Shown one piece after another: positions 5,531 to 36,908 of a stretch of 37,883 nucleotides of DNA. The stretch's first letter is position 1; each line of letters opens with the position of its first letter. The position numbers and the translations under genes were made by a program. The notes beneath the pieces were generated by a model. The model made no database searches. It was not told where the DNA came from and saw nothing but the letters and a program-made list of their open reading frames with translations. The stretch lies in the IMG/VR virus record IMGVR_UViG_3300032242_002588, positions 1 to 37,883 of that record; one strand, 5' to 3'. This DNA is from a virus.

Positions 5531-7714
5531 ATGGCGAAACAATTCAAAGACCCTGCCGACAAGGCTGAGGCCCATCGCCAGCGGATGGCGAGGCAATCCC
5601 GCGACAACTATGCGGCCGCGTCCGACATCGGGTCGATCCCGGAGGTGGTCAACCCGGAACGGCGTGAACGATGCCGACTGTCGCTCTACGAGGATCTCGT
5701 TACCTACTATCCGAACTCGACCGGCCTCAAGCCGTTCTCGGCCGCTCATCGCAAAGTGATTGACCGGATGCAGTGGTCCGTCCTCGAAGGCCAGGACGTT
5801 TGGAATTGCGTGTTTCGTGGATTTGCGAAAACCTCGATCGCGATCGGAACGGCCAGTTGGGCGCTCCGGAACGGACATCGCAAATTTATCCCGCTGCTCG
5901 CGGCGAATAAGAAATTCGCAGTCAACCTGCTGAGGATGCTCAAGAGCGGCCTGCAGACGAACGAGCTGCTCTATGAGGACTTCCCGGAGGTCTGCCATCC
6001 GATCCGCAAGCTGGAAGGGAAAAATCAACGTTGTGCCGCGCAGACGTGCGATGGACAGCCGACGCTGATTGTCTGGTCAAGCGACGAAATCATGCTGCCG
6101 ACGATTGAGGGGAGTGCCGCGAGCGGTGGTATCTGCCTCGCGTCGGGGATCATGGGGGCTCTGAATGGGCTTGTACGGACGTTAAACGATGGGCGAAACG
6201 TCCGTCCCGACTGGTGGCTGGCTGATGACCTGCAGACCCGGGCGACCGCTCGGAGTGCCACGCAGATCGAGAATCGACTCGACGCGTTGCAGCATTCCGT
6301 GATGATGCTCGGAGGCCACAACGACACGATTGGCGGATGCGTCAACGGCACGCTGTTTAAGCCGGACGACGTCATGCAGCAGTTGGCCAATCCAGAATTG
6401 TTTCCATCGTTCAGCGGCGAAGTCGTCCCGATGGTCGTCAAATGGCCCGACTCGCATGAATCGTTCTGGCTGGATCAGTATTCGAAGGTCCTGAGGGCCT
6501 TCGATCCCAAGATTCCCAACGATCGCAAGCGGGCCTTCAACGAGGCGACCGCGTTGTATGCGTCGCGACGAATGGAGGCCGATGCCGGGGCTGAAGTGAC
6601 CTGGGAACATTGCTACAAGGAAAAGCATGGCGAGCTGTCCGCACTGCAGCACGCATACAACATTCTGATCCTGCAGGGCGACGAAGTCTTTTCGACGGAG
6701 TGCCAGCAGAACGTCTACCTTGAGAGCGGTGAGACCGAGCAACTGGCGCTCACAGACATCAATTTGAAGTTGTCCGGATACAAACGACGGTTTGTCCCGC
6801 CAGACGTAACGAAGCTCACCGCGTTCGTCGACGTGCAAGAGTCGTCTCTGTGGTGGGGCGTGATTGGATTTAATCCGAGCTTCGGCGGGTACGTGATCGA
6901 CTACGGCGCGTGGCCTGACCAAGGGACGACAGACTGCAGCCGCAGTAACGTCCGCAAGTCGATCGCTCAGAAGTACAAAGCACTCGGGTCAAAGGAGGCT
7001 CGGATCCGGGCGGCGATCGCGGACCTGACGGCCGAGCTGCTCGGGACGCAGTGGGAGGGCGAAGGGGGACGCTCGCTGGAAGTATCGAGGATGGGAATCG
7101 ACGTCGGCGACGGCGATTTTGCCAAACCGATCCGATCATGGTGTTGCGACAAAGAGAATATTTACCGATCGCGGATCCAGCCGTGTATGGGGGTCGGTGT
7201 CCGGCCAACCGACGAACCGATGGCCCACCGCAAGAAAGGCAAAACCGAGATTGCTCGCGGTCTGAACTGGATCCTGATGCGCGACCCCGAATTTAAAAGT
7301 GGCACGATCCAATACACCGATGTGAATTGGTGGAAGTCGTTTGTTGCCGCCAGATGGCGATCGGCGAGTGCCCGGGCCAAGAACGATTCCGGTTGGCGAC
7401 CGAGCGAAGGGGGCGGCTATTACCTCTACGGCCTGGACCATCAAGTCCATACGGCGTTCGCCACGCAATTCCTCGCAGAACGGTGTGAAGAGGTCGAGAA
7501 CCGCACCAAGGGCCGCAAATGCGATGTCTGGACGCTGAAGAATAAGAACACACCGAACGAGTACCTGGACATCGTGACGACGGCCAGTGCCCTGGCTTCG
7601 CGCGAAGGGATCGAGCTGCGGGATGCTGGTTTGTCGTCGGCTGCGTCGAAGAAACGAAAGCGGTTGACCGCTGCCGATCTCCGTGCTCTGAAGGAGGCGA
7701 AGCGTGGCGGCTGA
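5531..7714 (+). CDS. Phage terminase large subunit
   Basis: The ATG at 5531 follows CGGAG by seven bases. The 727-residue protein is the DNA-packaging motor: its ATPase translocates DNA into the prohead and its nuclease cuts the concatemer. The Walker A-like motif is FRGFAKTS (Lys100, Thr101), the common R-G-x-A-K-T/S variant. The Walker B motif is WWLADD (Asp232/Asp233). The C-terminal nuclease domain starts near VDVQES (Asp434), with further acidic residues in MGIDVGDG (521-528) and EYLDIVT close to the C-terminus. The last 20 residues are Lys/Arg-rich. No small subunit is recognised. Its end overlaps the next gene by 11 bases. Confidence 0.93.
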   Translation: MAKQFKDPADKAEAHRQRMARQSRDNYAAASDIGSIPEVVNPERRERCRLSLYEDLVTYYPNSTGLKPFSAAHRKVIDRMQWSVLEGQDVWNCVFRGFAKTSIAIGTASWALRNGHRKFIPLLAANKKFAVNLLRMLKSGLQTNELLYEDFPEVCHPIRKLEGKNQRCAAQTCDGQPTLIVWSSDEIMLPTIEGSAASGGICLASGIMGALNGLVRTLNDGRNVRPDWWLADDLQTRATARSATQIENRLDALQHSVMMLGGHNDTIGGCVNGTLFKPDDVMQQLANPELFPSFSGEVVPMVVKWPDSHESFWLDQYSKVLRAFDPKIPNDRKRAFNEATALYASRRMEADAGAEVTWEHCYKEKHGELSALQHAYNILILQGDEVFSTECQQNVYLESGETEQLALTDINLKLSGYKRRFVPPDVTKLTAFVDVQESSLWWGVIGFNPSFGGYVIDYGAWPDQGTTDCSRSNVRKSIAQKYKALGSKEARIRAAIADLTAELLGTQWEGEGGRSLEVSRMGIDVGDGDFAKPIRSWCCDKENIYRSRIQPCMGVGVRPTDEPMAHRKKGKTEIARGLNWILMRDPEFKSGTIQYTDVNWWKSFVAARWRSASARAKNDSGWRPSEGGGYYLYGLDHQVHTAFATQFLAERCEEVENRTKGRKCDVWTLKNKNTPNEYLDIVTTASALASREGIELRDAGLSSAASKKRKRLTAADLRALKEAKRGG

Positions 7715-22515: not shown

Positions 22516-23988
22516 ATGGCCGTACAAGCTTGGCGAGTCATTGAGAAGAGCGTAACGGTCGGGACCGGTGCCCTGGCTCTGTTGGGAGCCGATGCGTCGT
22601 TTCAGCGGTTCCGCGATCGCTGTGCCAACGGAGCCATCGTCAGCGTCGTGTGCGTCAATCCCGGCAAAAACGAGGCGGAAGAATTTCTGGGGACGTTCGC
22701 GACGGGAGCTCCGGACACAATCACCAGGCTGAAGACGATCAGCTCGACGAACGCGGATGCGGCGGTCAGTTGGACCGGTGGATCGAAGATCGTAATGCTC
22801 ACGCTCCCAAGCTATGCCTGCTCGGCCATGGCGTTGCTCAAACCGGCGGTCCGGGCCGCGACAAAGGCCAATGTGACGCTGGCCTCCGTGGTGGCTGGCT
22901 ATTCCCTGGACGGGGTAACTCTATCAGTTGGTGATAGAGTTCTTTTGGCCGGTCAAACGACTGCCAGCCAGAACGGGATTTACATCGTCGCCGCTTCGGC
23001 CGCTCCTTCGCGGGCGTTGGATTGTTACACGGGAGACACGATTGCCGGGGCGACGGTCCCCGTCCTGCAGGGGACGGCGAATTCCGGTCAATGGTTTGTG
23101 TGCACGTCGGTCGCTGGTTCGGACATTGTGGGAACGTCCTCCCTGAGCTGGGCGAACTCGCAAGGGGCGACCGGGGCAACCGGACCGGCCAACACATTGG
23201 CGATCGGCACCGTGACGACGCTGACTGCTGGATCCAGCGCGACGGCGACGATCACGGGGACGGCACCGACTCAGACACTGAACCTCGGCATTCCTAAAGG
23301 GGCTGACGGGACGACTGGGGCGGGGACTGTCACGAGCGTGAATGCCAGCGGGACCAATGGTCTATCCGTCAGCGGCGGACCGGTGACCTCGGTTGGTTCG
23401 TTGACGATCGGCCTGACGCTGGCTGGCGACGCGGTGGTCGATGCAGCGGGTAACGTGACGGTCAGCAAGACCGGCGGAGTCGCGTTCGCCGCGAGCGCCA
23501 CAACTGACGCGACAAACGCCGCAAACCTATCGAGCGGAGTGCTGGCCGCAGCTCGTGGCGGAGCAGGCACGAATACGGGGCTGTTGAAAGCCAACGGCTC
23601 AGGCGTCGTTTCATCCGCCACGGCTGGATCTGACTATGTCTCGCCAGGCACCGCGACAACGTTCACCAAGCAACAGGCGTTCGGAACGGCAACACTGACC
23701 GACGCGGCCACGATCGCATGGGACGTCAGCGGGGCTCAGGTGGCCAAGGTGACTCTCGGAGGAAATCGGACGCTGGGAGCTCCGACGAATTTGATTGACG
23801 GCGCGACTTATGTTCTCCGCGTGAAGCAAGACGCGACCGGTTCGCGCACCCTCGCCTATAACTCTGTGTTCAAATGGCCGGGGGGGACTGCTCCAGTGCT
23901 ATCGACGGCGGCGAATGCCCTGGACATTCTGACGTTCGTTAGTGACGGAACCTATCTTTATGGCGTGTGCCAGAAGGCGTTCTCATGA
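22516..23988 (+). CDS. Tail fibre protein
   Basis: The 490-residue product has an N-terminal domain unlike common fibres (1-110), a TKANVTLASVVAGYSLDGV...GDRVLLAGQTTASQNGIY module (about 113-160), a short collagen-like GATGATGPA segment (about 216-225), a Gly/Thr/Ser-rich shaft with LLKANGSGVV and a C-terminal domain with NALDILTFVSDGTYLYGV, all typical of long phage fibres. Low aromatic content and many Ala/Thr/Ser residues fit a trimeric beta shaft. It ends in an ATGA overlap with the Gly-rich adhesin gene, suggesting the adhesin caps the fibre. Confidence 0.8.
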   Translation: MAVQAWRVIEKSVTVGTGALALLGADASFQRFRDRCANGAIVSVVCVNPGKNEAEEFLGTFATGAPDTITRLKTISSTNADAAVSWTGGSKIVMLTLPSYACSAMALLKPAVRAATKANVTLASVVAGYSLDGVTLSVGDRVLLAGQTTASQNGIYIVAASAAPSRALDCYTGDTIAGATVPVLQGTANSGQWFVCTSVAGSDIVGTSSLSWANSQGATGATGPANTLAIGTVTTLTAGSSATATITGTAPTQTLNLGIPKGADGTTGAGTVTSVNASGTNGLSVSGGPVTSVGSLTIGLTLAGDAVVDAAGNVTVSKTGGVAFAASATTDATNAANLSSGVLAAARGGAGTNTGLLKANGSGVVSSATAGSDYVSPGTATTFTKQQAFGTATLTDAATIAWDVSGAQVAKVTLGGNRTLGAPTNLIDGATYVLRVKQDATGSRTLAYNSVFKWPGGTAPVLSTAANALDILTFVSDGTYLYGVCQKAFS

Positions 23989-24701
23989 ATTTGATGACAC
24001 GCCCGAGGCCCGGATCCGTTCGTTGGCGCGTCCCTCGTGGACTGCGTGCGATGCTGGTCTTTCCCGTGTCGTTGTGGGGGACCGCGTCAGGGGGCGGCTA
24101 TGTCCCTGGTTCTCAGACCTATTCCACCGGCTCGGGGACGTTCACCGTTCCCGCCGGGGTGACGACGCTCAGAATTCAGATTTGGGGCGGCGGTGGTGGA
24201 GGCGGTGCAGGGGACGTCGGCGGATCAAATGTGGGGGGGGCTGGCGGCGGCGGCGGAGCATTTATCGACGTGCCCTATTTCAGCGTCACGCCCGGGCAAA
24301 CGATTAGTTACAGCTTCACGAGTAATACAGGGGCCGGGGATGCTTTAACAGGGTCAGGACAAGGCCAATCTGGGACCAGTGTCAGCGTCAACAGCGCAAT
24401 GTTCATCGTGGGAGGCGGCGTGGGTGGGCTTTCCTGGGGCACTGGTGGATCGGCCTCAGGCGGGACATGGTCCAGCTCGTATGGCGGGGCAATGACGACC
24501 GCGAATGGTTCATCCGGTTCGCCGAATTCCGGAAACAATGGCGGGGCTGGTGGTGCCTCGGGAAGCGGATCGTCGGGGGGGGCCGCTGATACCGGGTCAG
24601 GTTCGAATGCCGGAACCACTCCGGGCGGTGGTGGTGGCGGTGGGTTCAAAAATCATGCCGGGGCCAATGGTGGGGCAGCTCGGTTGGTCTTTACCTGGTG
24701 A
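23985..24701 (+). CDS. Gly-rich tail fibre tip/adhesin
   Basis: The 238-residue product has a basic N-terminus with one hydrophobic stretch (about 20-35), then a beta module FTVPAGVTTLRIQIWGGGGGGG, after which Gly-rich islands (GGAGGGGGAF, GGAGGASGSG, GGGGGGGFKN) alternate with variable strands up to LVFTW. This resembles Gly-rich receptor-binding tips such as T2/S16 gp38, whose Gly-rich motifs pack as polyglycine helices and carry variable recognition loops. Coupled to the fibre gene by ATGA. A host-range determinant is likely. Confidence 0.72.
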   Translation: MNLMTRPRPGSVRWRVPRGLRAMLVFPVSLWGTASGGGYVPGSQTYSTGSGTFTVPAGVTTLRIQIWGGGGGGGAGDVGGSNVGGAGGGGGAFIDVPYFSVTPGQTISYSFTSNTGAGDALTGSGQGQSGTSVSVNSAMFIVGGGVGGLSWGTGGSASGGTWSSSYGGAMTTANGSSGSPNSGNNGGAGGASGSGSSGGAADTGSGSNAGTTPGGGGGGGFKNHAGANGGAARLVFTW

Positions 24702-27236: not shown

Positions 27237-29240
27237 ATGGCATCCGCTGGTGGCATTCGAGCGGGCAAAGCCTACGTCGAGCTGTACGGCGACGACTCCG
27301 CGCTGCAACGAACCTTGCTCCAATCGGAGAAGCGATTGAAATCGTGGGGCAAAGGCCTGATGTCAATCGGTCAGACCACGGCGATCGCCGCCACGGCCAT
27401 GACGGCACCGTTGATCGGTGCCGTGAACGCGTGGCAAGAGATGGGGTCCCAGATTGACGACATCTCGCAACGGACCGGTGTGAGCTCCGAATCGTTATCA
27501 ACGTTGGGATACGCCGCGAAACAATCTGGAACCGACATCGAGTCTCTGGAGAAGTCGCTTCGGAAGATGGAGCAGAATCTCGCCGAGGCTTATCGCGGAA
27601 ACGATCAGGCGCAGGAGAGTTTCTCGCGGCTCGGCCTGACGTTCGAGCAACTCAAAGGACAAACGCCGGATCAGCAACTTCGTCTGATCGGCGATCGGCT
27701 GAACAGAATTAAGGATCCAGCCCTCAAGACAGCGACGGCCATGGACATCTTTGGCAAGTCTGGGACCGCATTGTTGCCAATGTTCGCTGACGGTGCAGCG
27801 GGGTTGGAAGCGATGGAAGCCAAGGCCCGCGAGCTCGGGCTCGAGCTGAAGGGGGACGACGTCGCGGCCGCAGCTGCATTCGGCGACCAGCTCGACACGT
27901 TGTGGGACGTCTGCAAGCGGGGCGTGTTCGCGGTCGGTGCCGCGCTGGGCCCCGCGTTGACCGACCTGGTGAATCTGGTTACGGACTACACGTCGAAGGC
28001 GGCGAAGTGGATCGACCAGAATCGCGGGCTGATCGTATCCGCGGCGAAGCTTCTGGCGGGGTTACTCGCCGTCGGCGTGGCGATCATGGCGGCTGGAGCG
28101 GCAATGACAGTGCTCGGGACGGCACTGGGCATCGGTGCCAGTGTTGTCGGTGCCATCGTCGCGGGGATTGGCGTGTTGGGATCGGTCCTGGCATTCCTGA
28201 TGACACCGATCGGCATGGTGATCGGCGGTGTTGCGGCAGCGACGGCGGCGTTTTTGTATTTCACCGGCTACGGCGGGCAGCTCGTCGACTGGCTGCAGGC
28301 CAAGTTTGGTGAGATGGCTTCGATTTTCGGAAAGGCATGGGGAGGCATCGTCTCGGCCGTGGCGAAGGGCGACCTGGGCAAAGCGGCCGAGATCGCGTGG
28401 CTCACGTTTCAGGTCGCGTTCTATACGGCTACGGCAGAGATCTCCGCAGGCTGGTCGCGGTTCTGCAAAGGATTTCTGGACGCGTGGGACACAGTCACGT
28501 TTAACCTGGCTCGGCTGTTCGCGGATCCCTGGAACACGATTCAAAACTGGTGGGTGACAGGTACCTCCGCGATGCTCGACGCGTGGGACGTGATCATGGC
28601 CGGGATCATCAATTCATTCTCGTCAGCAACCGGCTTTCTCAAGAAGGGGATCGCGGCATTATTGAATCTCTTAAGCGGCGAATCGATCACACTGGGATTT
28701 GAGGAGATCGACAAGCAAACCCAGGACGAGCAGAACAAAACCAATTCAAAGCGAGACGAGAGCATCAACAACCGAGCCAAGGCGACGAATGAAGAACTCA
28801 AACGATTGGACGCCGACCGGAACGATGCAGCGAAGTTCCTGGATGAGGCTCTCGAAAAGCAACGATTGAAGCGAGCGGAAGAGCTCAATACATCGTTGAA
28901 CGGAAGCAAGGAACGCCTGGCAAAACTCCGAGACGAATGGGATGCCACTATTGAAGAGGCGAAGAAGACATCAGAAGCAACGATTGGCGGAAAAGGACCG
29001 CGTAAGGGACCTCAGCTGCCAGAACTCGACGGCCTTCAGGCAGCAGAAAAAGTGACGCTGGGAGGAACGTTTAACGCGGCAGCCGTTCGAGGACTAGGGG
29101 CAGGAATGGCAACAGGCGTTTTAGAACGCATCGCCAAATCATCTGAACAGACAGCCAGAAATACTTCCAACATTCCTGAAGGCCCGGCAAAGGTCGTAGT
29201 AGCGGGTATCCAGGTACAAAAGTTCGGGCCAGGTGCCTGA
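27237..29240 (+). CDS. Tail tape measure protein
   Basis: GAAAGGGG precedes ATG 27237. The 667-residue product starts with AGKAYVELYGDDSALQRTL, then a coiled region and IDDISQRTGVSSESLSTLGYAA, the common tape-measure signature. Hydrophobic segments at about 262-345 could insert in the host membrane at DNA entry. The C-terminal third is charged coiled coil (about 480-600). Such proteins set tail length at about 1.5 angstrom per residue, implying a tail of about 100 nm, which indicates a long non-contractile tail given the absence of sheath genes. Confidence 0.9.
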   Translation: MASAGGIRAGKAYVELYGDDSALQRTLLQSEKRLKSWGKGLMSIGQTTAIAATAMTAPLIGAVNAWQEMGSQIDDISQRTGVSSESLSTLGYAAKQSGTDIESLEKSLRKMEQNLAEAYRGNDQAQESFSRLGLTFEQLKGQTPDQQLRLIGDRLNRIKDPALKTATAMDIFGKSGTALLPMFADGAAGLEAMEAKARELGLELKGDDVAAAAAFGDQLDTLWDVCKRGVFAVGAALGPALTDLVNLVTDYTSKAAKWIDQNRGLIVSAAKLLAGLLAVGVAIMAAGAAMTVLGTALGIGASVVGAIVAGIGVLGSVLAFLMTPIGMVIGGVAAATAAFLYFTGYGGQLVDWLQAKFGEMASIFGKAWGGIVSAVAKGDLGKAAEIAWLTFQVAFYTATAEISAGWSRFCKGFLDAWDTVTFNLARLFADPWNTIQNWWVTGTSAMLDAWDVIMAGIINSFSSATGFLKKGIAALLNLLSGESITLGFEEIDKQTQDEQNKTNSKRDESINNRAKATNEELKRLDADRNDAAKFLDEALEKQRLKRAEELNTSLNGSKERLAKLRDEWDATIEEAKKTSEATIGGKGPRKGPQLPELDGLQAAEKVTLGGTFNAAAVRGLGAGMATGVLERIAKSSEQTARNTSNIPEGPAKVVVAGIQVQKFGPGA

Positions 29241-29252
29241 TCGGAGCATCAA

Positions 29253-30047
29253 ATGGGCTTTGCGAAACTGGATTATGTTGGACCTAGCGCTAGCGGCGGC
29301 GATTCTTCGACCGTCGAGTCTCGCTGGTGGGTTGACAACTGTTCTGATTATTCGGACGCGGTGAATTCCCTCTTGTCGGCAGCGCCAGTGCGGCTTGGAC
29401 AAATGGTAATTACTGGATATCGGGTCGATCCCGAAACCGACACGCTCTACCTAGGGTCCGTCACTTACGGCACAAAACAACTGGATGAATCGACTTATTC
29501 GTTTGAGATCGGGACATCGCCAACCAAGATCACTCAGAGCCTGCAAACTGTCGGTAGTTATGCCAGGCCAGGAAACACTCCGAGCAATTTTGGCGGTGCA
29601 ATTGGAGTGACGAAAGAAGGCGTCGAGGGGACAGACATTTCCGTCCCGACTTTCAGCTGGACGGAGACTCATTATCTTGTCAAGCAAAGGGTCAACAAGG
29701 CTTTCTTTTTCGTATTGTTCAACTTGACCGGCCAAATGAATGCTGGCACGTTTCGAGACTTCGATCGCGGTGAAGTACTTTTGATTGGGGTGAATGGGTC
29801 AGCGAGCCGCCTTGTCCCGAAATTCGAACTGCAATTCAAATTTCTAGCCCTTCCCAATTCTCCAGGTGGCTCAATAAACGATATCCCGATCGGTCCCAAG
29901 TTGGGGCACGATTACTTGTGGGTCAGATATCGAGATCGCAAAGACGCTGCCTCCAATTCGATGGTCAAGATTCCCTATGAGGTCTTCATCGAACGTGTCT
30001 ATCAGTTCGGCGATTATGACCAACTAAGTCTTCCAGAGCCGTTTTGA
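29253..30047 (+). CDS. Distal tail protein, unknown
   Basis: GGAG precedes ATG 29253. The 264-residue product is beta-rich with many Tyr/Phe/Trp and contains ITGYRVDPETDTLYLGSVTYG and FRDFDRGEVLLIGVNG. It follows the tape measure, where distal tail or baseplate hub proteins are encoded, but I see no specific hub motif. Codon use is slightly more AT-rich than in the head genes. Confidence 0.6.
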   Translation: MGFAKLDYVGPSASGGDSSTVESRWWVDNCSDYSDAVNSLLSAAPVRLGQMVITGYRVDPETDTLYLGSVTYGTKQLDESTYSFEIGTSPTKITQSLQTVGSYARPGNTPSNFGGAIGVTKEGVEGTDISVPTFSWTETHYLVKQRVNKAFFFVLFNLTGQMNAGTFRDFDRGEVLLIGVNGSASRLVPKFELQFKFLALPNSPGGSINDIPIGPKLGHDYLWVRYRDRKDAASNSMVKIPYEVFIERVYQFGDYDQLSLPEPF

Positions 30048-30055
30048 GGTATCCA

Positions 30056-30568
30056 ATGTCTACGCGAAGAGTCCATGCTGGCGAGTCTCTTCAAATCGCG
30101 GCCCGTACATGGAACGCGATGCTGGCGAAGCTCGAAGAACGAGACAGCGTCGGCATGTCTCATTTGCCTGATCATGATGAGGCGACCACGTGCCTGATCC
30201 GAAATGACACGGGCGACGATCTGCCCTGGCGTGGCGTCGTGGGGCTGGGACCGCCGTTAATCCTGCCGACCGACGACGAGGACGAGTACCTGTCGGGGTT
30301 CGTCTTTGTTGGCACGCTGGCGACGACTCCCAGCTATTCGGCCAAGTGGGGCCTAACGCTCGAACCGATCGCGTCCGGTGACGTCGGTCTGGTACGGATT
30401 TCCGGCATCGCTCATTGCTACATCGATTTGTCGCCCGATCACGTCATCCAGTTCGCTGGCCCGGACTCGTCGGGAACGGTCGGAGCGCTCGTTTCGGCCA
30501 ACTGTGGTGCACGGGTCATTTATCGGGCGCCGGGGACAGGTCCTCAATATGGAATTGTCGTTCTATGA
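30056..30568 (+). CDS. Tail-tip-module protein, unknown
   Basis: ATG 30056 gives 170 residues: a helical N-terminus (SLQIAARTWNAMLAKLEE) and a beta domain with DTGDDLPWRGVVGLGPPLI and SGDVGLVRISGIAHCYIDL. This pattern resembles proteins that bind fibre or baseplate parts, but no family is assigned. Ends in an ATGA overlap with the Cys-rich gene. Confidence 0.55.
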   Translation: MSTRRVHAGESLQIAARTWNAMLAKLEERDSVGMSHLPDHDEATTCLIRNDTGDDLPWRGVVGLGPPLILPTDDEDEYLSGFVFVGTLATTPSYSAKWGLTLEPIASGDVGLVRISGIAHCYIDLSPDHVIQFAGPDSSGTVGALVSANCGARVIYRAPGTGPQYGIVVL

Positions 30569-32415
30569 GCTGGTGGAACTGCTGCTGTTTCTGCACGACG
30601 ATCTACCGGCTGAACCTGAATGGCAGCACGCGGTGGAAAGCCAACTATTACTTCGACAGTGACACTTCCGTCACAACCGCGAACAGCGGCCGCGTCGGTC
30701 AATGCGACATCGACTCGCTCGGGAACGTGTATCAGGTCGGCTGGCGAACGCAGACGCTGCAGAATGTTTCCGCGTTGCCTCAGACGGTTCCGATGTACAC
30801 GCTGAGGTCATGGGATTCGACTGGTGAACTTCGCTGGAGCTGGTCAGAGAAACCCTATGGCGCGGTCGTTTCCACGAATCGATCAGGTCCGACCCCATTG
30901 TTGAGCGTTCGCGCAACTATGATCGGTTCCAAACCGATTGTCGTCGTGGGCGACAACTGGAACCTGAACGTCGGGTCCAGCGGTTGGAATACCGGCAACA
31001 CGGACGGTATGGTCAATGCCACGGCGATCGATATCGACGGCAATCAACTCTGGCGGGTGAAACTGGAAGCGGGCGCTCAACTCGTCGCGGCCGGGACAAC
31101 TCGCACGCTCTGGTCGCGATCGGGCGGCGGGTGGATCGTGCTGAGGAATACAGACGGAGCCCGAATGTCGCTGATGGCTCCTACGGTGTCATTCTATGTT
31201 TATCCCGATTCCTACATCACGAACGGAATCGTCGTGGCGACGATGGATGCCGACGATTCGATCTTCGCAGTCTTATCCAAGGCGGTCGCGACGTCTGCTC
31301 TGGGACTGGAAACGCATTATGCTGTCGGCAAGTTTGAGTCTGACAGCCTGATTCCTTCGGCGGTTGTCACGTCTCAAAACTTTTACTCGTACACGGCACC
31401 ATACACCGCAAACTGCTTTAAGAAGCTGGGCGTTCCCAACGCGATTGAATCGGCGAGCGATGCCGTTATTGTAGCGTCGTCACTGGGAATCGAAACGTTC
31501 ACAAAGTCGACGCTGGTTGCGGCTTCAATGAAGTGCATGCCGGTGTCAAAGCTGCTATATGCCGATGCGGCTCGCATTGGAATGTATGACACGTTCGGAA
31601 ACGGATTTATCCCTCCGTCGATTCACAAGCGTGATTACACGCGATGGCTGAACTGGGACGTTCAAAATACTGACACGTGGCCGCATCCGGCTCAAGCGAC
31701 GCCGTTCCGTGATGCTCGCAAGTGTTCGGACGGCGGCTCACTGTGGTCGCAGGACTTCACGTGCTACATCCACGAAATCGAAGCCGATACGCGAGCGGCT
31801 CCTGGTCCGTGTGCCGAGGTCTGCTGCGAGAACTGCTTTCAGTCGGACTTCCCAACGTCCTACACCAGTCTGCACGGTGCCGTTTATTCGTTGGACGATC
31901 AGTTCAACAAGCTGAACTTCATAACGCTCGCTGGATTCTGCAAAGGATTGGGAAGCTGTCGTTGGCAATCGGGGAATGTTGGCCTTTTTATCTCCGCGGG
32001 GCAAACGCTGATTCAAGACGCGACCGGTACCGGGGCATCATTGAATGTATTCATCTCATGCTGCACTGAGACGGTCGGCGCAAATCTGTACTTCGACATC
32101 TACAACCAGGCGAGCTATCGGTGTGGTGCGTTCGACTGCTCGGGTGGCACGTTCACGAAAATCAGTGATGGACCGAACGCAAATTCCAGCGGCTTCCCAT
32201 CAACCGTGACAATCACGCCGATGAACTGCAGCACCCCCGCAGACGGTCATACCGACTGCGGGGGCGTCGGGGCGTTCATCAGTATTCCAGACGGCGCGGG
32301 TGGCTTCACATGGGTGGCCGATGGTGCCGATAGCTGCACCCAGGATTGCTCCCGCGTGGCACCGTCGTTCATGCCCACTGCGGCAAACCAGCGAACCACT
32401 GTGGGGTGTGCATGA
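30565..32415 (+). CDS. Large Cys-rich tail protein with possible beta-propeller
   Basis: ATG 30565 overlaps the previous stop. The 616-residue product starts with a cysteine cluster (NCCCFC, residues 5-10) and holds 24 cysteines in all, many in the last third (PCAEVCCENC, FCKGLGSC, DSCTQDC). The central part (about 50-400) has repeated DIDSLGNVYQVGW and DIDGNQLWRVKL blades, suggesting a beta-propeller. The product probably forms the tail tip or receptor-contact structure, stabilised by disulfides or metal. It is coupled by ATGA to a second Cys-rich gene. Confidence 0.65.
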   Translation: MSWWNCCCFCTTIYRLNLNGSTRWKANYYFDSDTSVTTANSGRVGQCDIDSLGNVYQVGWRTQTLQNVSALPQTVPMYTLRSWDSTGELRWSWSEKPYGAVVSTNRSGPTPLLSVRATMIGSKPIVVVGDNWNLNVGSSGWNTGNTDGMVNATAIDIDGNQLWRVKLEAGAQLVAAGTTRTLWSRSGGGWIVLRNTDGARMSLMAPTVSFYVYPDSYITNGIVVATMDADDSIFAVLSKAVATSALGLETHYAVGKFESDSLIPSAVVTSQNFYSYTAPYTANCFKKLGVPNAIESASDAVIVASSLGIETFTKSTLVAASMKCMPVSKLLYADAARIGMYDTFGNGFIPPSIHKRDYTRWLNWDVQNTDTWPHPAQATPFRDARKCSDGGSLWSQDFTCYIHEIEADTRAAPGPCAEVCCENCFQSDFPTSYTSLHGAVYSLDDQFNKLNFITLAGFCKGLGSCRWQSGNVGLFISAGQTLIQDATGTGASLNVFISCCTETVGANLYFDIYNQASYRCGAFDCSGGTFTKISDGPNANSSGFPSTVTITPMNCSTPADGHTDCGGVGAFISIPDGAGGFTWVADGADSCTQDCSRVAPSFMPTAANQRTTVGCA

Positions 32416-32852
32416 CGACTCCGTGCCAGTTTTTGGGCAAACTCCATGCGACAGGGTCGCATCATCCCGACGTGTACCACTGTCTGGCGGGCAGAGTCAT
32501 CTGTACGCTCGAGCAGTCCGAGCTGCGAACCGCGTCCGGCCCGGTTGCTTCCTGCGATCGGTGCGAATCGTTTTTTGTGCCCGGCCAAATTGATCCTGAC
32601 AGGCTGCTCGATCCGGATCTGAAGTATCTGGTTTGCCCCTATCGTGAGAAACCAACCGGCGAACAATTGAACGCGTCAGGCTGCGGCTGCGATCGCCAGA
32701 TTTACCATTGTGAACTGAAAGGGCGATGCGTCAAACGTCTGCCACCAGGTCGACGCGTAGAATCTTTCGGCGAACAACTGACGGGCGTGACAATCTGCAA
32801 AGACTGCGAAGTTCCGAACGAGTCGAAACCGAATACCGAAAAGACAACCTGA
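32412..32852 (+). CDS. Cys-rich protein, 12 cysteines in 146 residues
   Basis: ATG 32412 overlaps the previous stop. Cysteines occur as pairs (SCDRC, GCGCD, ICKDC) and single sites, spaced like multiple small zinc knuckles or a disulfide-rich fold. Short YHC segments recur (residues about 22-24 and 98-100), suggesting internal duplication. Similar Cys-rich proteins with YHC/CxxC patterns accompany other planctomycete gene clusters, as far as I recall. I infer partnership with the upstream 616-residue tail protein. A perfect hairpin follows the stop. Confidence 0.6.
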   Translation: MTTPCQFLGKLHATGSHHPDVYHCLAGRVICTLEQSELRTASGPVASCDRCESFFVPGQIDPDRLLDPDLKYLVCPYREKPTGEQLNASGCGCDRQIYHCELKGRCVKRLPPGRRVESFGEQLTGVTICKDCEVPNESKPNTEKTT

Positions 32853-32853
32853 G

Positions 32854-32877
32854 TACCGCTATTAGACAATAGCGGTA
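32854..32877. repeat. Perfect 10-bp-arm hairpin after a stop codon
   Basis: TACCGCTATT at 32854-32863 pairs with AATAGCGGTA at 32868-32877 across a 4-base loop, one base after the stop of the Cys-rich gene. Confidence 0.85.
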
Positions 32878-32901
32878 GTCACGTCCAAGGAAGGACAAAA
32901 C

Positions 32902-33033
32902 ATGCGACCGTTTCTCGTTTTCGTCGTGGGTGTCGTGACCAGTTATTACGGGTGGGCGGCGCTGCTTGCCCATTATGCCGCGTCGTCCGATATCACCTGC
33001 GGGGCGCAATCTTCTGGCTCGGTGGAATGGTGA
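32902..33033 (+). CDS. Tiny membrane protein, 43 residues
   Basis: AAGGAAGGA precedes ATG 32902. The product has a hydrophobic segment (residues about 4-27, FLVFVVGVVTSYYGWAALLA) and a short polar tail with one Cys. It starts a chain of three overlapping tiny genes at the end of the tail module, where holin-type proteins are often found. Confidence 0.6.
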   Translation: MRPFLVFVVGVVTSYYGWAALLAHYAASSDITCGAQSSGSVEW

Positions 33034-33140
33034 TGCCGATCGTCGTCCTTGTCGGGGGCCTGGTCGCTTTGCTCGCCGAATGCCTGTATGAGCGGTACTT
33101 GGAACGCCGCGGATCGCTCAAGTCCGGACTGCGGCCATGA
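33033..33140 (+). CDS. Tiny membrane protein, 35 residues
   Basis: ATG 33033 overlaps the previous stop by one base (TGATG) with GGTGGA at 33021-33026; ATG 33027 is in frame. The product is a hydrophobic segment (PIVVLVGGLVALLAECL) with a basic tail. Its stop overlaps the next ATG. Confidence 0.5.
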   Translation: MPIVVLVGGLVALLAECLYERYLERRGSLKSGLRP

Positions 33141-33292
33141 AGGACGAACGGCGAATTGAATACAACTTCTTCTCCGTCCTTTACCGGCACGCCCTCTGCC
33201 TTTTGGCATGGTACTCGAGTAGCGAAGTGAGGTCGCTTCGAAATGACATCGAAGCTCAGGTCGGACGAACGTGGAATTGTGCTCGACGGTAG
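33137..33292 (+). CDS. Tiny unknown protein, 51 residues
   Basis: ATG 33137 overlaps the previous stop (ATGA). The product is basic at the N-terminus with a weak hydrophobic middle (LYRHALCLLAWYSSS) and a charged end. No family is recognised; coupling to the two upstream genes is the main support. Confidence 0.45.
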   Translation: MKDERRIEYNFFSVLYRHALCLLAWYSSSEVRSLRNDIEAQVGRTWNCARR

Positions 33293-33318
33293 TTTTTGTA
33301 GCCACAGGAAATTGAATC

Positions 33319-33573
33319 ATGGCGAAACAATCGAAGGAAGAAATGACGGCCGATCTCCAGAAGCGGATCGATGAGTCCTATGCGTCGACGGTTCCCCAAC
33401 TCGCGCAGGCAACTGGCATCGCTTATATCACCATCAAAGTAGAAGTCGGGGAAGAGTCGCATAGTATGCGACTGACCGCACGCAAGGGCGATGATGACCA
33501 GACCTCGATGAAACTCCGCGAGGCTGTCCGCATCATCAATAATTGGTTGGAAGAGGGATTTAGAAAGGCGTGA
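33319..33573 (+). CDS. Small unknown protein before integrase
   Basis: The 84-residue product has a charged helical start, a strand pair (AYITIKVEVG, HSMRLTARKG) and a C-terminal helix (LREAVRIINNWLEEG). The compact alpha/beta layout could be a small DNA-binding or excision factor, given the integrase next door, but no motif proves it. Its stop begins the fourth 18-bp palindrome. Confidence 0.6.
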   Translation: MAKQSKEEMTADLQKRIDESYASTVPQLAQATGIAYITIKVEVGEESHSMRLTARKGDDDQTSMKLREAVRIINNWLEEGFRKA

Positions 33574-33609: not shown

Positions 33610-34512
33610 ATGGCCAGCAAATACAAGCCGTCGACCGTGATCACGGCGAATGGACACACGAAGACTTTGAATGAGTTCGCGTCCGATCTTGGCTGTCCGG
33701 TGCAAACGCTTATCGGGCGCCTCGATCGCGGCCAATCGGAAGAGCAAGCGGTCACGACCCCGATCAGCTCGATGGGCGGATCCAATCGCGGAAAGAAGCT
33801 CGCTGCCGAGGTGCTCACGCCCGAAGAGCTGCAGCTCGTCCTGGCAGCCAACAACAAAGGATTAACCGGCGATCGCAACCGGGCACTGATCGTGATTGGA
33901 TGGCGTGCAGGCCTGCGAATCAGCGAAGCATTGGCACTCAAGCTGACCGATCTCAATGCACAGCAGCAGACGCTGCGGGTGTTGCACGGCAAAGGCAACA
34001 AGGCCAGAACGGTTGGGCTCGACGGTGCAGCCTGGGCAGTCCTGCACCAATGGATCGCCCGCAGAGATGCGGCAGGTCTGCCGGCGACGTCGCCGCTGTT
34101 CTGCACAGAGACCGGCGGTCAATTGTCAGACCGATACGTGCGAGACCTCCTCCCCAGGCTGGCCCGCGCGGCAAAGATCGACAAACGATGTCACTTCCAC
34201 GGGCTACGTCACACGATGGCGTTCGAACTCGCGAGCGAAGGCGTGCCCATGCACGTCATCCAACAGCAGCTCGGCCACAGCAACCTGGCCGTGACAAGTC
34301 GATATATCAATCACCTCAACCCGGCCGAGACGATCGCAAGAATGAAGGCGAGGGCATGGGGAAGTAACCCTGTAACCAATCCGGTTGCATCGGCACTACC
34401 ATCGCCCGACTGGCTCGACCGACTCAGGGCCGACATCGGTGAGCGACTCATTTCGTTCACCGATCTGAGGACCGATCCGAACCAATTCCGTGCGTTGGTC
34501 ACTTTGATTTGA
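33610..34512 (+). CDS. int: Tyrosine recombinase (phage integrase) with unusual N-terminus
   Basis: The 300-residue protein carries a complete tyrosine recombinase catalytic domain: Arg103 (GLRISEAL), Lys128 (HGKGNK), His197/Arg200 (HGLRH), His223 (LGH) and nucleophile Tyr232 (SRY). The first 55 residues are not a normal SAM-like core-binding domain; GHTKTLNEFASDLGCPVQTL with RLDRGQSEEQAV resembles the small helix-turn-helix found on phage homing endonucleases. A roughly 60-residue C-terminal extension follows the Tyr. It would integrate the phage, presumably at the tRNA-Phe site (35874-35915). GAAAGGA precedes the ATG. Confidence 0.9.
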   Translation: MASKYKPSTVITANGHTKTLNEFASDLGCPVQTLIGRLDRGQSEEQAVTTPISSMGGSNRGKKLAAEVLTPEELQLVLAANNKGLTGDRNRALIVIGWRAGLRISEALALKLTDLNAQQQTLRVLHGKGNKARTVGLDGAAWAVLHQWIARRDAAGLPATSPLFCTETGGQLSDRYVRDLLPRLARAAKIDKRCHFHGLRHTMAFELASEGVPMHVIQQQLGHSNLAVTSRYINHLNPAETIARMKARAWGSNPVTNPVASALPSPDWLDRLRADIGERLISFTDLRTDPNQFRALVTLI

Positions 34513-34774: not shown

Positions 34775-35584
34775 ATGAAAGACTTCGACAAGAAATGCAA
34801 ACCGAATAAACCGACCAGGCCCGTTCTTCGATACCACGGCGGCAAGTGGCGAATCGCTCCCTGGGTGATCAGCTTCTTCCCCGAACACGAGACCTATGTG
34901 GAATCGTTCGGTGGGGGTGGATCCGTTCTATTGCGAAAGCCTGAATCCAGAAACGAGGTCTACAACGACCTCGACGAAGAATTGTGCAACCTCTTCAAAG
35001 TGCTCCGAGGCCGAGGTCCGCAATTGGTCAAGCTTCTAAAGCTGACACCGTTCTCAAGAACCGAATTCGAAAGATGCTTCGAACGGGGTGGCAGTGACAT
35101 TGAACGAGCGAGGAAATCAGTTTTCCGATCAATCTGTGGGTTTGGCACCGCAGGCTATTTCCGAAAGACCGGGTTCTCGACCTCAATCAAAGGGGGCAAC
35201 TGCAGAAGCCACGAATGGGCGAACTACCCAGGGGCTCTCTCAGCAGTGGTTGAACGCTTCAGGCGTGTCGTGGTTGAGAACCGGCCCGCGGTCGACGTGA
35301 TGACCCGAAACGACTCACCCTCGACGCTGCATTACGTTGATCCGCCCTACGTTTCTGAAACACGGTCGTCGCCTAAGGACTACCATCATGAGCTGACAGA
35401 CGAGCAGCACGTCGAACTTGCCGACTGCCTGCATTCATTGAAAGGCACCGTCGTCCTGAGTGGATATCCGTCGAAGTTGTATACAAGGCTCTTTAAGTCC
35501 TGGCGTACACATGATCGGTTGACGACCACCCAGACGAACGAGCAACGCACCGAGCGACTCTGGATCAAACCAGCTCGCTCATAG
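34775..35584 (+). CDS. D12-class adenine-N6 DNA methyltransferase
   Basis: AAGGA precedes ATG 34775. The 269-residue product is a Dam-like enzyme: RYHGGKWRIAPW (residues 19-30), FGGGGSVLL (45-53, AdoMet-binding), EVYNDLDEEL (61-70), and the catalytic DPPY at 189-192. The C-terminal LSGYPSKLY is typical of the D12 family. It transfers methyl groups from AdoMet to adenine in a short DNA target (GATC for Dam itself; target unknown here). No cognate restriction gene is present, so it is an orphan that may protect phage DNA or regulate. Its stop codon lies in an inverted repeat. Confidence 0.9.
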   Translation: MKDFDKKCKPNKPTRPVLRYHGGKWRIAPWVISFFPEHETYVESFGGGGSVLLRKPESRNEVYNDLDEELCNLFKVLRGRGPQLVKLLKLTPFSRTEFERCFERGGSDIERARKSVFRSICGFGTAGYFRKTGFSTSIKGGNCRSHEWANYPGALSAVVERFRRVVVENRPAVDVMTRNDSPSTLHYVDPPYVSETRSSPKDYHHELTDEQHVELADCLHSLKGTVVLSGYPSKLYTRLFKSWRTHDRLTTTQTNEQRTERLWIKPARS

Positions 35585-35873: not shown

Positions 35874-35915
35874 CTGAAAATCCTGGTGTCGGCGGTTCGA
35901 TCCCGCCCCCAGCCA
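35874..35915 (+). other. 3' half of tRNA-Phe(GAA): probable prophage attachment site
   Basis: The stretch reads as the 3' half of a tRNA: anticodon loop CTGAAAA (anticodon GAA), stem strand TCCTG, variable loop GTGTC, T-arm GGCGG-TTCGATC-CCGCC, acceptor strand CCCAGCC and discriminator A. The 5' half is missing: bases before it (TGCGG) cannot pair with TCCTG, and no GGCTGGG acceptor strand lies at the right distance. Such a fragment is the usual mark of integration into a tRNA gene. It lies 1.4 kb from the integrase gene; the intact gene should be beyond the left window edge. Confidence 0.78.
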
Positions 35916-35958
35916 TTTCTTCTGGCAACTTACCGTTCCCGTTACTTGGCGGTGCGGC

Positions 35959-36507
35959 ATGAAAAGGATTTTCCTCACCCTGGCGGCCCTTCTTTTCACG
36001 GATGTGGCATTTGCCGCCGACACGCCAACGAAGCCTCTGACAAAAGAGGAGCAGGCCGCAGTCTCAGCATATGACGGGCTTGAAGATGAATGGCGTGATA
36101 AGGCCATCGCTGACTGGAAGGCTGGTTACAAGTCTGCAAGAAACGGTCGAGCGAAGAAGATGTTCCTGAAAAACGACCCGGTCTTTTATCGAGCCATTTT
36201 TGATTCCAGCCAATCGCTTCGGAGTGACAGTTGGGGTCGCCTGCTTAGCTACGACACAGACGGAACGCCTCATGGCGTTGAAGTCTTCCAGATCGTGAGC
36301 AAAAGCAAGGCCCTCTGCAAACGCGATGACGATCTGTTTTTCGTCGAAGGCATCGACACGTCCAACATCGTCGATGGAAAGCGATACCTTTTCGACGAAG
36401 CGTTCTACGTCGCGGGAAATGCCACCTACAAAACTGCACTTGGCACCTCGAAGACGGTTTATGTGCTTAAGCCGCTTCCTGAAAAACCGGCTGCCAAATC
36501 CAAATGA
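35959..36507 (+). CDS. Secreted protein of unknown function
   Basis: The 182-residue product has a clear signal peptide (FLTLAALLFTDVAFAAD, cleavage near residue 20). The mature part begins with a charged helix, followed by strands with YLFDEAFYVAG and TKTVYVLKPLP-like segments. No lipobox is seen. Proteins of this kind are common in planctomycetes without assigned function. It lies just outside the tRNA fragment and is probably host or neighbouring-element DNA. Confidence 0.6.
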   Translation: MKRIFLTLAALLFTDVAFAADTPTKPLTKEEQAAVSAYDGLEDEWRDKAIADWKAGYKSARNGRAKKMFLKNDPVFYRAIFDSSQSLRSDSWGRLLSYDTDGTPHGVEVFQIVSKSKALCKRDDDLFFVEGIDTSNIVDGKRYLFDEAFYVAGNATYKTALGTSKTVYVLKPLPEKPAAKSK

Positions 36508-36536
36508 TTGCCTCCTATATCCGTTTAGCGTATAAC
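36508..36536 (+). promoter_or_regulatory. Candidate promoter of the XRE gene
   Basis: TTGCCT (36508-36513) and TATAAC (36531-36536) are 17 bases apart. A TAGCGTAT site at 36526-36533 overlaps the -10 and resembles the downstream AAGCGTAT operator halves, suggesting self-repression. Confidence 0.5.
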
Positions 36537-36545
36537 TGAAGGACC

Positions 36546-36806
36546 ATGCAAGTGACAAAAGCAGAACTGAGATCAACCATCGGGTCCAACATTCGGACGC
36601 GCCGGACTGAGCTCGGCTTGTCGCAACAGTCGGTCGCCGACGCCGTGGAACTCTCCCAGGCACAGATTAACCGCATCGAAAAAGGGGTTTCCTCATTCCC
36701 GGCTGACTTGTTCGCTTCCCTCGGTGAAGTGCTCCACGTCGATCCGTTGTTTTTCTTGACCCCTCAACGCTCCGAAACAAATTCGAGTCATACGCTTGAC
36801 GTATGA
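36546..36806 (+). CDS. XRE-family repressor
   Basis: GAAGGA precedes ATG 36546. The 86-residue product is a compact Cro/C1-type regulator: helix-turn-helix SQQSVADAVELSQAQINRIEKG at about residues 26-47 and a dimerisation-type tail with LGEVLHVDPLFFL. Repeats matching its own promoter and a downstream promoter suggest negative control. It could belong to a neighbouring mobile element, since a recombinase-like gene follows. Confidence 0.82.
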   Translation: MQVTKAELRSTIGSNIRTRRTELGLSQQSVADAVELSQAQINRIEKGVSSFPADLFASLGEVLHVDPLFFLTPQRSETNSSHTLDV

Positions 36807-36823
36807 TACATGAAGCGTATACT
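36790..36823 (+). promoter_or_regulatory. Promoter overlapped by paired operator halves
   Basis: TTGACG (36796-36801) and TATACT (36818-36823) are spaced by 16 bases. ATACGCTT (36790-36797) and its reverse complement AAGCGTAT (36813-36820) overlap the two hexamers. A second dyad, CATACG/CGTATG, lies at 36789-36805. This is the layout of a repressor-controlled promoter. Confidence 0.6.
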
Positions 36824-36829
36824 TCCCGC

Positions 36830-36908
36830 CGTCGAACTGACGCGCGGTTGATTGAACCTAATTCAATTTCAGACGCCCGCCTGTTCGACAGGTCGGGCGT
36901 TTTTCTTT
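36830..36908 (+). ncRNA. Candidate short RNA between promoter and terminator
   Basis: A transcript from the 36796-36823 promoter would begin near 36830 and end at the strong terminator near 36908, giving about 75-80 bases. No ribosome-binding site with a short frame is evident. It could be a regulatory RNA or a terminated leader of the downstream gene. Confidence 0.35.

Follow-up and report, generated by a model that had tools for sequence, protein, structure and literature searches.

A tRNA-Phe(GAA) 3' half between two tyrosine recombinase genes as the probable attP core of a planctomycete phage

Does the orphan 3' half of a tRNA gene near the right end of a virus record mark the border of an integrated prophage, or does the phage run on through it? 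We addressed this question for a 37,883-base IMG/VR virus record (G000; this whole stretch is called the window below), which comes without a host contig and encodes ParB-like, Gam-like, terminase, portal, head, tail and tape-measure proteins, followed by a tyrosine recombinase (integrase A) and the genes beyond it. The preliminary description had taken the fragment at 35874-35915 for the attachment duplicate at the right border of a prophage, with host DNA to its right. In the Islander collection (PMC4383910), islands that target tRNAs have an attP with part of the target gene in it, and anticodon-centred sites account for 2083 of the 3919 islands. That source and a paper on archaeal tyrosine recombinases (PMC8371274) describe tyrosine integrases as often exchanging strands around the 7-base anticodon loop, and integration as restoring the tRNA and moving its original fragment to the opposite end.

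The tRNA-Phe(GAA) fragment

The sequence of 35874-35915 (plus strand), read from the letters, is CTGAAAATCCTGGTGTCGGCGGTTCGATCCCGCCCCCAGCCA. It consists of the anticodon loop CTGAAAA (anticodon GAA), the 3' strand of the anticodon stem (TCCTG), the variable loop (GTGTC), the T-arm (GGCGG-TTCGATC-CCGCC), the acceptor strand (CCCAGCC) and the discriminator A, the 3' half of tRNA-Phe(GAA) that had been recognized beforehand, and corresponds to nucleotides 32-73 of the gene. All 42 bases are identical to the intact tRNA-Phe genes of three Schlesneria (Planctomycetota) MAGs (L010, L029 and L051), and we read the fragment as the attP core. In each comparison the identical stretch opens with the anticodon loop, its first base being 35874, and ends at 35918, 35917 and 35915, respectively. 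With a per-site probability of about 10^-24.9 for 42 exact bases, a chance origin of the match is excluded. A 34-base part of the core was found in 51 stretches of bacterial genome contigs, mostly from Planctomycetota, and in 21 stretches of virus contigs, most of them intact tRNA-Phe genes. When 174 tRNA genes from the fetched loci were compared with the window, essentially all matches fell at 35874-35915.

ARAGORN found no tRNA anywhere in the window, neither an intact gene at this site, the outcome that the preliminary description had named as contradicting its reading, nor one elsewhere, and the best match in the window to the 5' half of tRNA-Phe had 12 mismatches in 31 positions; the fragment does lack its 5' half. 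Joining the 5' half of each of the three Schlesneria genes in silico to the window core gave in every case a tRNA-Phe(GAA) that ARAGORN accepted.

Orphan 3' fragments also occur in other planctomycete genomes (L020, L021, L024, L031), and the one in the window might be a tRNA relic, an old scar unrelated to the present phage. It shows no decay, however, with 42 of 42 bases identical, and it lies between recombinase genes exactly as in relatives that hold different tRNAs there (see below), and we find this explanation scarcely credible.

Genes on either side of the core

The left part of the window starts with genes at 7-729 and a ParB-like gene at 811-2886 (phrog_4715, E 3.9e-20); the terminase large subunit gene (5531-7714; phrog_38, E 4.8e-25), with homologues in G157, G149 and G179, belongs to the late region of the same phage. 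Integrase A (P0001, 300 aa; 33610-34512; PF00589, E 1e-36) and a D12-class, Dam-like N6-adenine DNA methyltransferase (34775-35584; PF02086, E 3.6e-20) precede the core, which starts 1.36 kb after integrase A and therefore does lie beyond both genes, as first described. All window genes named here and below are on the plus strand. The methyltransferase has an 81% identical homologue in the same place in contig G006:C220.

To find relatives we searched with an alignment of integrase A, which yielded 65 loci; locus searches using P0001 alone, or the terminase, returned nothing. The true integrase A relatives are at five genomic loci of one planctomycete family. Identities are 65, 64, 48 and 44% in planctomycete genomes and 66% in a second virus record, G179, and the catalytic residues R-K-H-R-H-Y (R103, K128, H197, R200, H223, Y232) are invariant across the family. 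The part of integrase A matched by Pfam is the catalytic domain only; about 65 residues precede it, with no Pfam SAM-like core-binding domain, and the resemblance of residues 6-55 to part of phrog_3377, an HNH endonuclease family, hints that the DNA-binding domain may have been exchanged.

The window also contains several kinds of repeats. An 18-bp palindrome, TGATTTCTnnAGAAATCA, occurs five times (at 1847, 5295, 20865, 26318 and 33571). G154:C88 has three copies and G006:C220 a single one, close to where integrase A starts; none was found in G179, G157 or G149. A 50-nt repeat beginning CCCCTCACCCTAACCCTCTCCCCGG has four copies (at 9837, 19655, 20884 and 24908), and several inverted repeats, such as GAAACACAGAGGCACAGAGG, are scattered through the window.

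Directly to the right of the core follow a small ORF, an XRE-family gene, a two-hairpin element and a second tyrosine recombinase gene (rec2). The small ORF (P0004, 182 aa; 35959-36507), first gene of this module, has a signal-peptide-like N-terminus; a weak homologue lies between tRNA-Phe and a recombinase gene in G032, and a secreted-type ORF occupies the same place in G179. The helix-turn-helix regulator (P0005; 36546-36806; PF01381, E 3.3e-10), with XRE genes in equivalent positions in G157, G149:C20, G149:C23, G179 and G002, is probably the lysogeny repressor. A promoter-like pair, TTGACG (36796-36801) and TATACT (36818-36823) separated by 16 nt, can be read at 36790-36823, where an inverted repeat, ATACGCTT...AAGCGTAT, overlaps it and resembles an operator; both assignments are predictions from the letters. 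The two-hairpin element (36826-36902) comprises a hairpin at 36826-36847 and an intrinsic-terminator hairpin at 36871-36902 followed by a T run (RNAfold, -37.9 kcal/mol). Rec2 (P0002; 37203-37883) is cut by the end of the window after its N-terminal 227 aa; its full-length homologues match phage integrases in Pfam, PHROGs and NCBIfam scans (PF00589/phrog_1).

The two-hairpin element had no match in Rfam. Copies of it, a short GC hairpin and then a terminator downstream of an XRE gene, stand near the left ends of several planctomycete prophages (G002:C32:25034, G001:C88:8007, L158 at about 7420, L134 at about 2784, G149:C20:2552803 (L171) and L183 at about 9200), with a structurally similar element in G157, and it is a candidate for a repressor-controlled phage small RNA.

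Integrated relatives and a permuted virus record

Both attL and attR are seen in the prophages of contigs G157:C1 and G149:C20. These resemble the window in their terminase and structural genes, which are homologous, in an integrase A family member at the right end, in a P0002-like recombinase with XRE gene and two-hairpin element at the left, and in a tRNA fragment 1.4-1.9 kb after integrase A; unlike the window phage they are integrated, and their target is tRNA-Asp(GTC). An intact tRNA-Asp(GTC) stands at the left and identical 3' copies of 48 and 56 nt stand at the right, 38.6 kb (G157:C1) and 37.5 kb (G149:C20) from the tRNA and 1.45 and 1.89 kb after integrase A. In both, the intact tRNA is followed by a small ORF, an XRE gene, promoter-like hexamers, a hairpin, a terminator and a recombinase of the P0002 superfamily (29210-30280 in G157, profile E 5.5e-21; 23023-24129 in G149:C20, profile E 2.5e-17), and both ends belong to one phage with two recombinases.

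A third prophage, in G006, is split over two contigs, and we tested its left end for a second recombinase and ParB. Contig C220 carries integrase A (64%), the Dam homologue (81%) and then a 3' half of tRNA-Pro(CGG), while an intact tRNA-Pro that has 43 nt in common with this half is found on contig C123, immediately followed by recombinases and ParB, for which reason we read C123 as the left end of the same prophage. From the three layouts, the right end of this phage type consists of integrase A and a tRNA-borne core. In G154, L184 and L185, a scan for complete T-stems beyond integrase A turned up no tRNA fragment; such a scan can miss short fragments and had passed over the tRNA-Lys fragment of G179, which was later found by hand.

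By its position, 1.36 kb after integrase A, the exact tRNA-Phe 3' half of the window is where G157, G149 and G006 have their attR, and P0004 resembles an ordinary secreted protein; on these points the fragment could be the attR at which an integrated prophage gives way, from 35916 on, to ancestral host DNA. The 2 kb to its right, however, are the left-end module that follows attL in G157 and G149:C20, including a second phage-type recombinase, and we dropped this explanation once that match was seen. No synteny with the region downstream of Schlesneria tRNA-Phe was found in the right flank beyond the fragment itself and the phage-associated two-hairpin element, and nothing in the window has been shown to be host DNA. 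Contradicted by these prophages and by the record described next, a host flank is very improbable, and the proposed right border of a prophage at the fragment is not supported.

In the virus record G179 (L183; IMGVR_UViG_3300034121_002068, 39,646 bases), the genes for Gam (628), terminase (1443), portal, head and tail run collinear with those of the window and are followed by integrase A (28811-29719; 66%), a tRNA-Lys(CTT) 3' end (31070), a secreted ORF, an XRE gene, hairpins and a second recombinase (32235-33410). The similarity to the window extends over this whole order; the differences are the tRNA fragment, a tRNA-Lys(CTT) 3' end of T-arm type (about 21-25 nt), the family of rec2 and the point at which the circle is cut. 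The second recombinase gene is followed by an exonuclease-like gene, which from its translation we take to encode a 5'-3' exonuclease, by homologues of window genes 7-729 and ParB, and by the end of the record; tblastn placed the two homologues at 36321-36878 and 36994-38610. Past the G179 fragment, the same order thus leads via replication genes to homologues of the left-end genes of the window, and the phage therefore continues across the fragment. Because homologues of the left-edge genes of the window lie to the right of the G179 fragment, the two records share a single gene order, circularly permuted between them. ParB and Gam are 1.8 kb apart in the window and 1.7 kb apart across the ends of G179, which places G179 close to a full circle. 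Estimated from G179, the window would lack about 3 kb of a circle of about 41 kb. No terminal repeat or end overlap was found in the window record, and we infer the circular state of its genome from gene order relative to G179.

With the right end of the phage on one side of the core (integrase A and Dam) and its left end on the other, phage DNA flanks the core on both sides, and the fragment is either an attP or the junction of two tandem prophages. In the second case a first prophage (window 1-35873) and a second one, starting at 35916 with the P0002 integrase, would occupy one tRNA-Phe, and the fragment would serve the first as attR and the second as attL. P0002-type elements without integrase A do exist at tRNA-Phe in G032 and G165, and the right flank could come from such a different phage: they have 47-nt and 57-nt fragments 46 and 47 kb downstream of the tRNA, respectively, and the G032 element carries terminase, portal and tape-measure genes. 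Several nearby fragments are also seen in planctomycetes (for instance G006:C220 and G021:C108), and Islander (PMC4383910) lists 125 tandems, each member having its own integrase and tRNA fragment; within the window there are two recombinases and one tRNA fragment. Two different prophages in tandem had been a candidate of ours, as P0002 homologues follow tRNA-Phe in G032, G165 and G149:C23; it was demoted by the dual recombinases of the G157 and G149:C20 prophages, whose ends belong to one phage, and by G179, which has the same junction and then homologues of the left-end genes of the window, in a nearly closed gene circle. We prefer attP, since two independent virus records share the arrangement, no duplicated gene was seen in either one and the gene order comes full circle, and regard a tandem, the main rival, as unlikely.

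Further tRNA fragments were observed in the fetched genomes. G092:C26 (reverse strand, 28661-28704 of the fetched 60 kb) has an orphan tRNA-Phe 5' part (about nucleotides 1-44) that passes into non-tRNA DNA; an XRE gene and a P0002-type recombinase, the closest homologue of P0002, lie about 0.6 kb downstream. The site apparently stems from an integration that left the tRNA unrestored, or is a decayed attL. At G001:C88:7588, G149:C20:1362204, G002:C118:1492 and G157:C1:807859 there are orphan tRNA-Lys(CTT) 3' ends of T-arm type, about 21-25 nt long, which are apparently attachment scars of further planctomycete elements. The MAG L005, which carries the label Gammaproteobacteria, has an orphan tRNA-Phe 3' half on contig MGYJ01000013.1; the sequence before it, GGTTGCGGGTTCGAGCCCCGGAGTC, resembles part of the 3' end of another tRNA.

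Attachment and the choice of tRNA target

The fragment is most likely the attP core of a temperate phage that is siphovirus-like, has a Schlesneria-like planctomycete as its host and is seen here with its genome non-integrated or circularly permuted. Such a phage would carry nucleotides 32-73 of tRNA-Phe(GAA), and strand exchange by a tyrosine recombinase would take place within the anticodon arm of the tRNA-Phe gene of the host. The 5' half of that gene would then join the phage-borne 3' half, rebuilding the tRNA at attL, while the 3' half of the host would be displaced to attR at the far end. The window would be one linear cut of the circle of about 41 kb, with the right end of the phage joined to its left end through the core, from a genome that would be circular, concatemeric or circularly permuted. 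The free state of the genome and the crossover point are what we infer here; an exchange in the anticodon arm is consistent with the boundary at nucleotide 32 in the window and with the 5' part in G092, which ends at about nucleotide 44. Of the attachment duplicate claimed in the preliminary description, a tRNA-Phe attachment core starting at the anticodon loop stands, by exact identity and by the in-silico rebuilding of the tRNA, whereas the displaced host copy (attR) does not.

The site resembles the tRNA-embedded sites that phages and islands with tyrosine integrases use for attachment, namely the anticodon-loop class A of Islander (Williams 2002, as cited in PMC4383910), in having a 3' fragment with identity from the anticodon loop, integrase genes beside it and a tRNA that is restored on integration, and differs in that it is read here as an attP inside a phage record, between two tyrosine recombinase genes, integrase A on its left and P0002 on its right. 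A literature search covering abstracts and passages turned up nothing on this group of phages, nor on one of two integrases determining the target.

Which recombinase sets the target can be approached by comparing phages at different tRNAs. Integrase A is 61-66% identical among the phages at tRNA-Phe (window), tRNA-Pro (G006) and tRNA-Lys (G179), and so does not track the target, while the rec2 proteins of the window and G179 belong to different families. In G032, G165 and G149:C23 a P0002 homologue stands immediately downstream of tRNA-Phe, and in G092 one stands downstream of the tRNA-Phe 5' part, with no integrase A of the window family in the fetched surroundings of these four, and P0002 is likely a tRNA-Phe-specific integrase. 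A rec2 of the G179 type is also found near a tRNA-Lys 3' end in G001:C88. In the two tRNA-Asp phages (G157, G149:C20) rec2 is 60% alike, and integrase A is also 62% alike. That the target tRNA tracks rec2 (37203 to the end of the window) and not the integrase at 33610-34512 is, with few cases from related genomes, a lead and not a result. We propose tentatively, with slightly less than even confidence, that rec2 sets the tRNA target and is exchanged along with the core as one cassette, integrase A staying much alike; integrase A would then have another job, for example in excision or dimer resolution.

The analysis corrects the end of this phage: cutting at the tRNA fragment would discard the probable repressor and the probable target-setting integrase. 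It predicts a precise attB, the anticodon arm of tRNA-Phe, for an uncultured phage and points to a Schlesneria-like group as its likely hosts. It also exposes a two-recombinase layout in which the target-specificity cassette appears to be exchanged between related phages.
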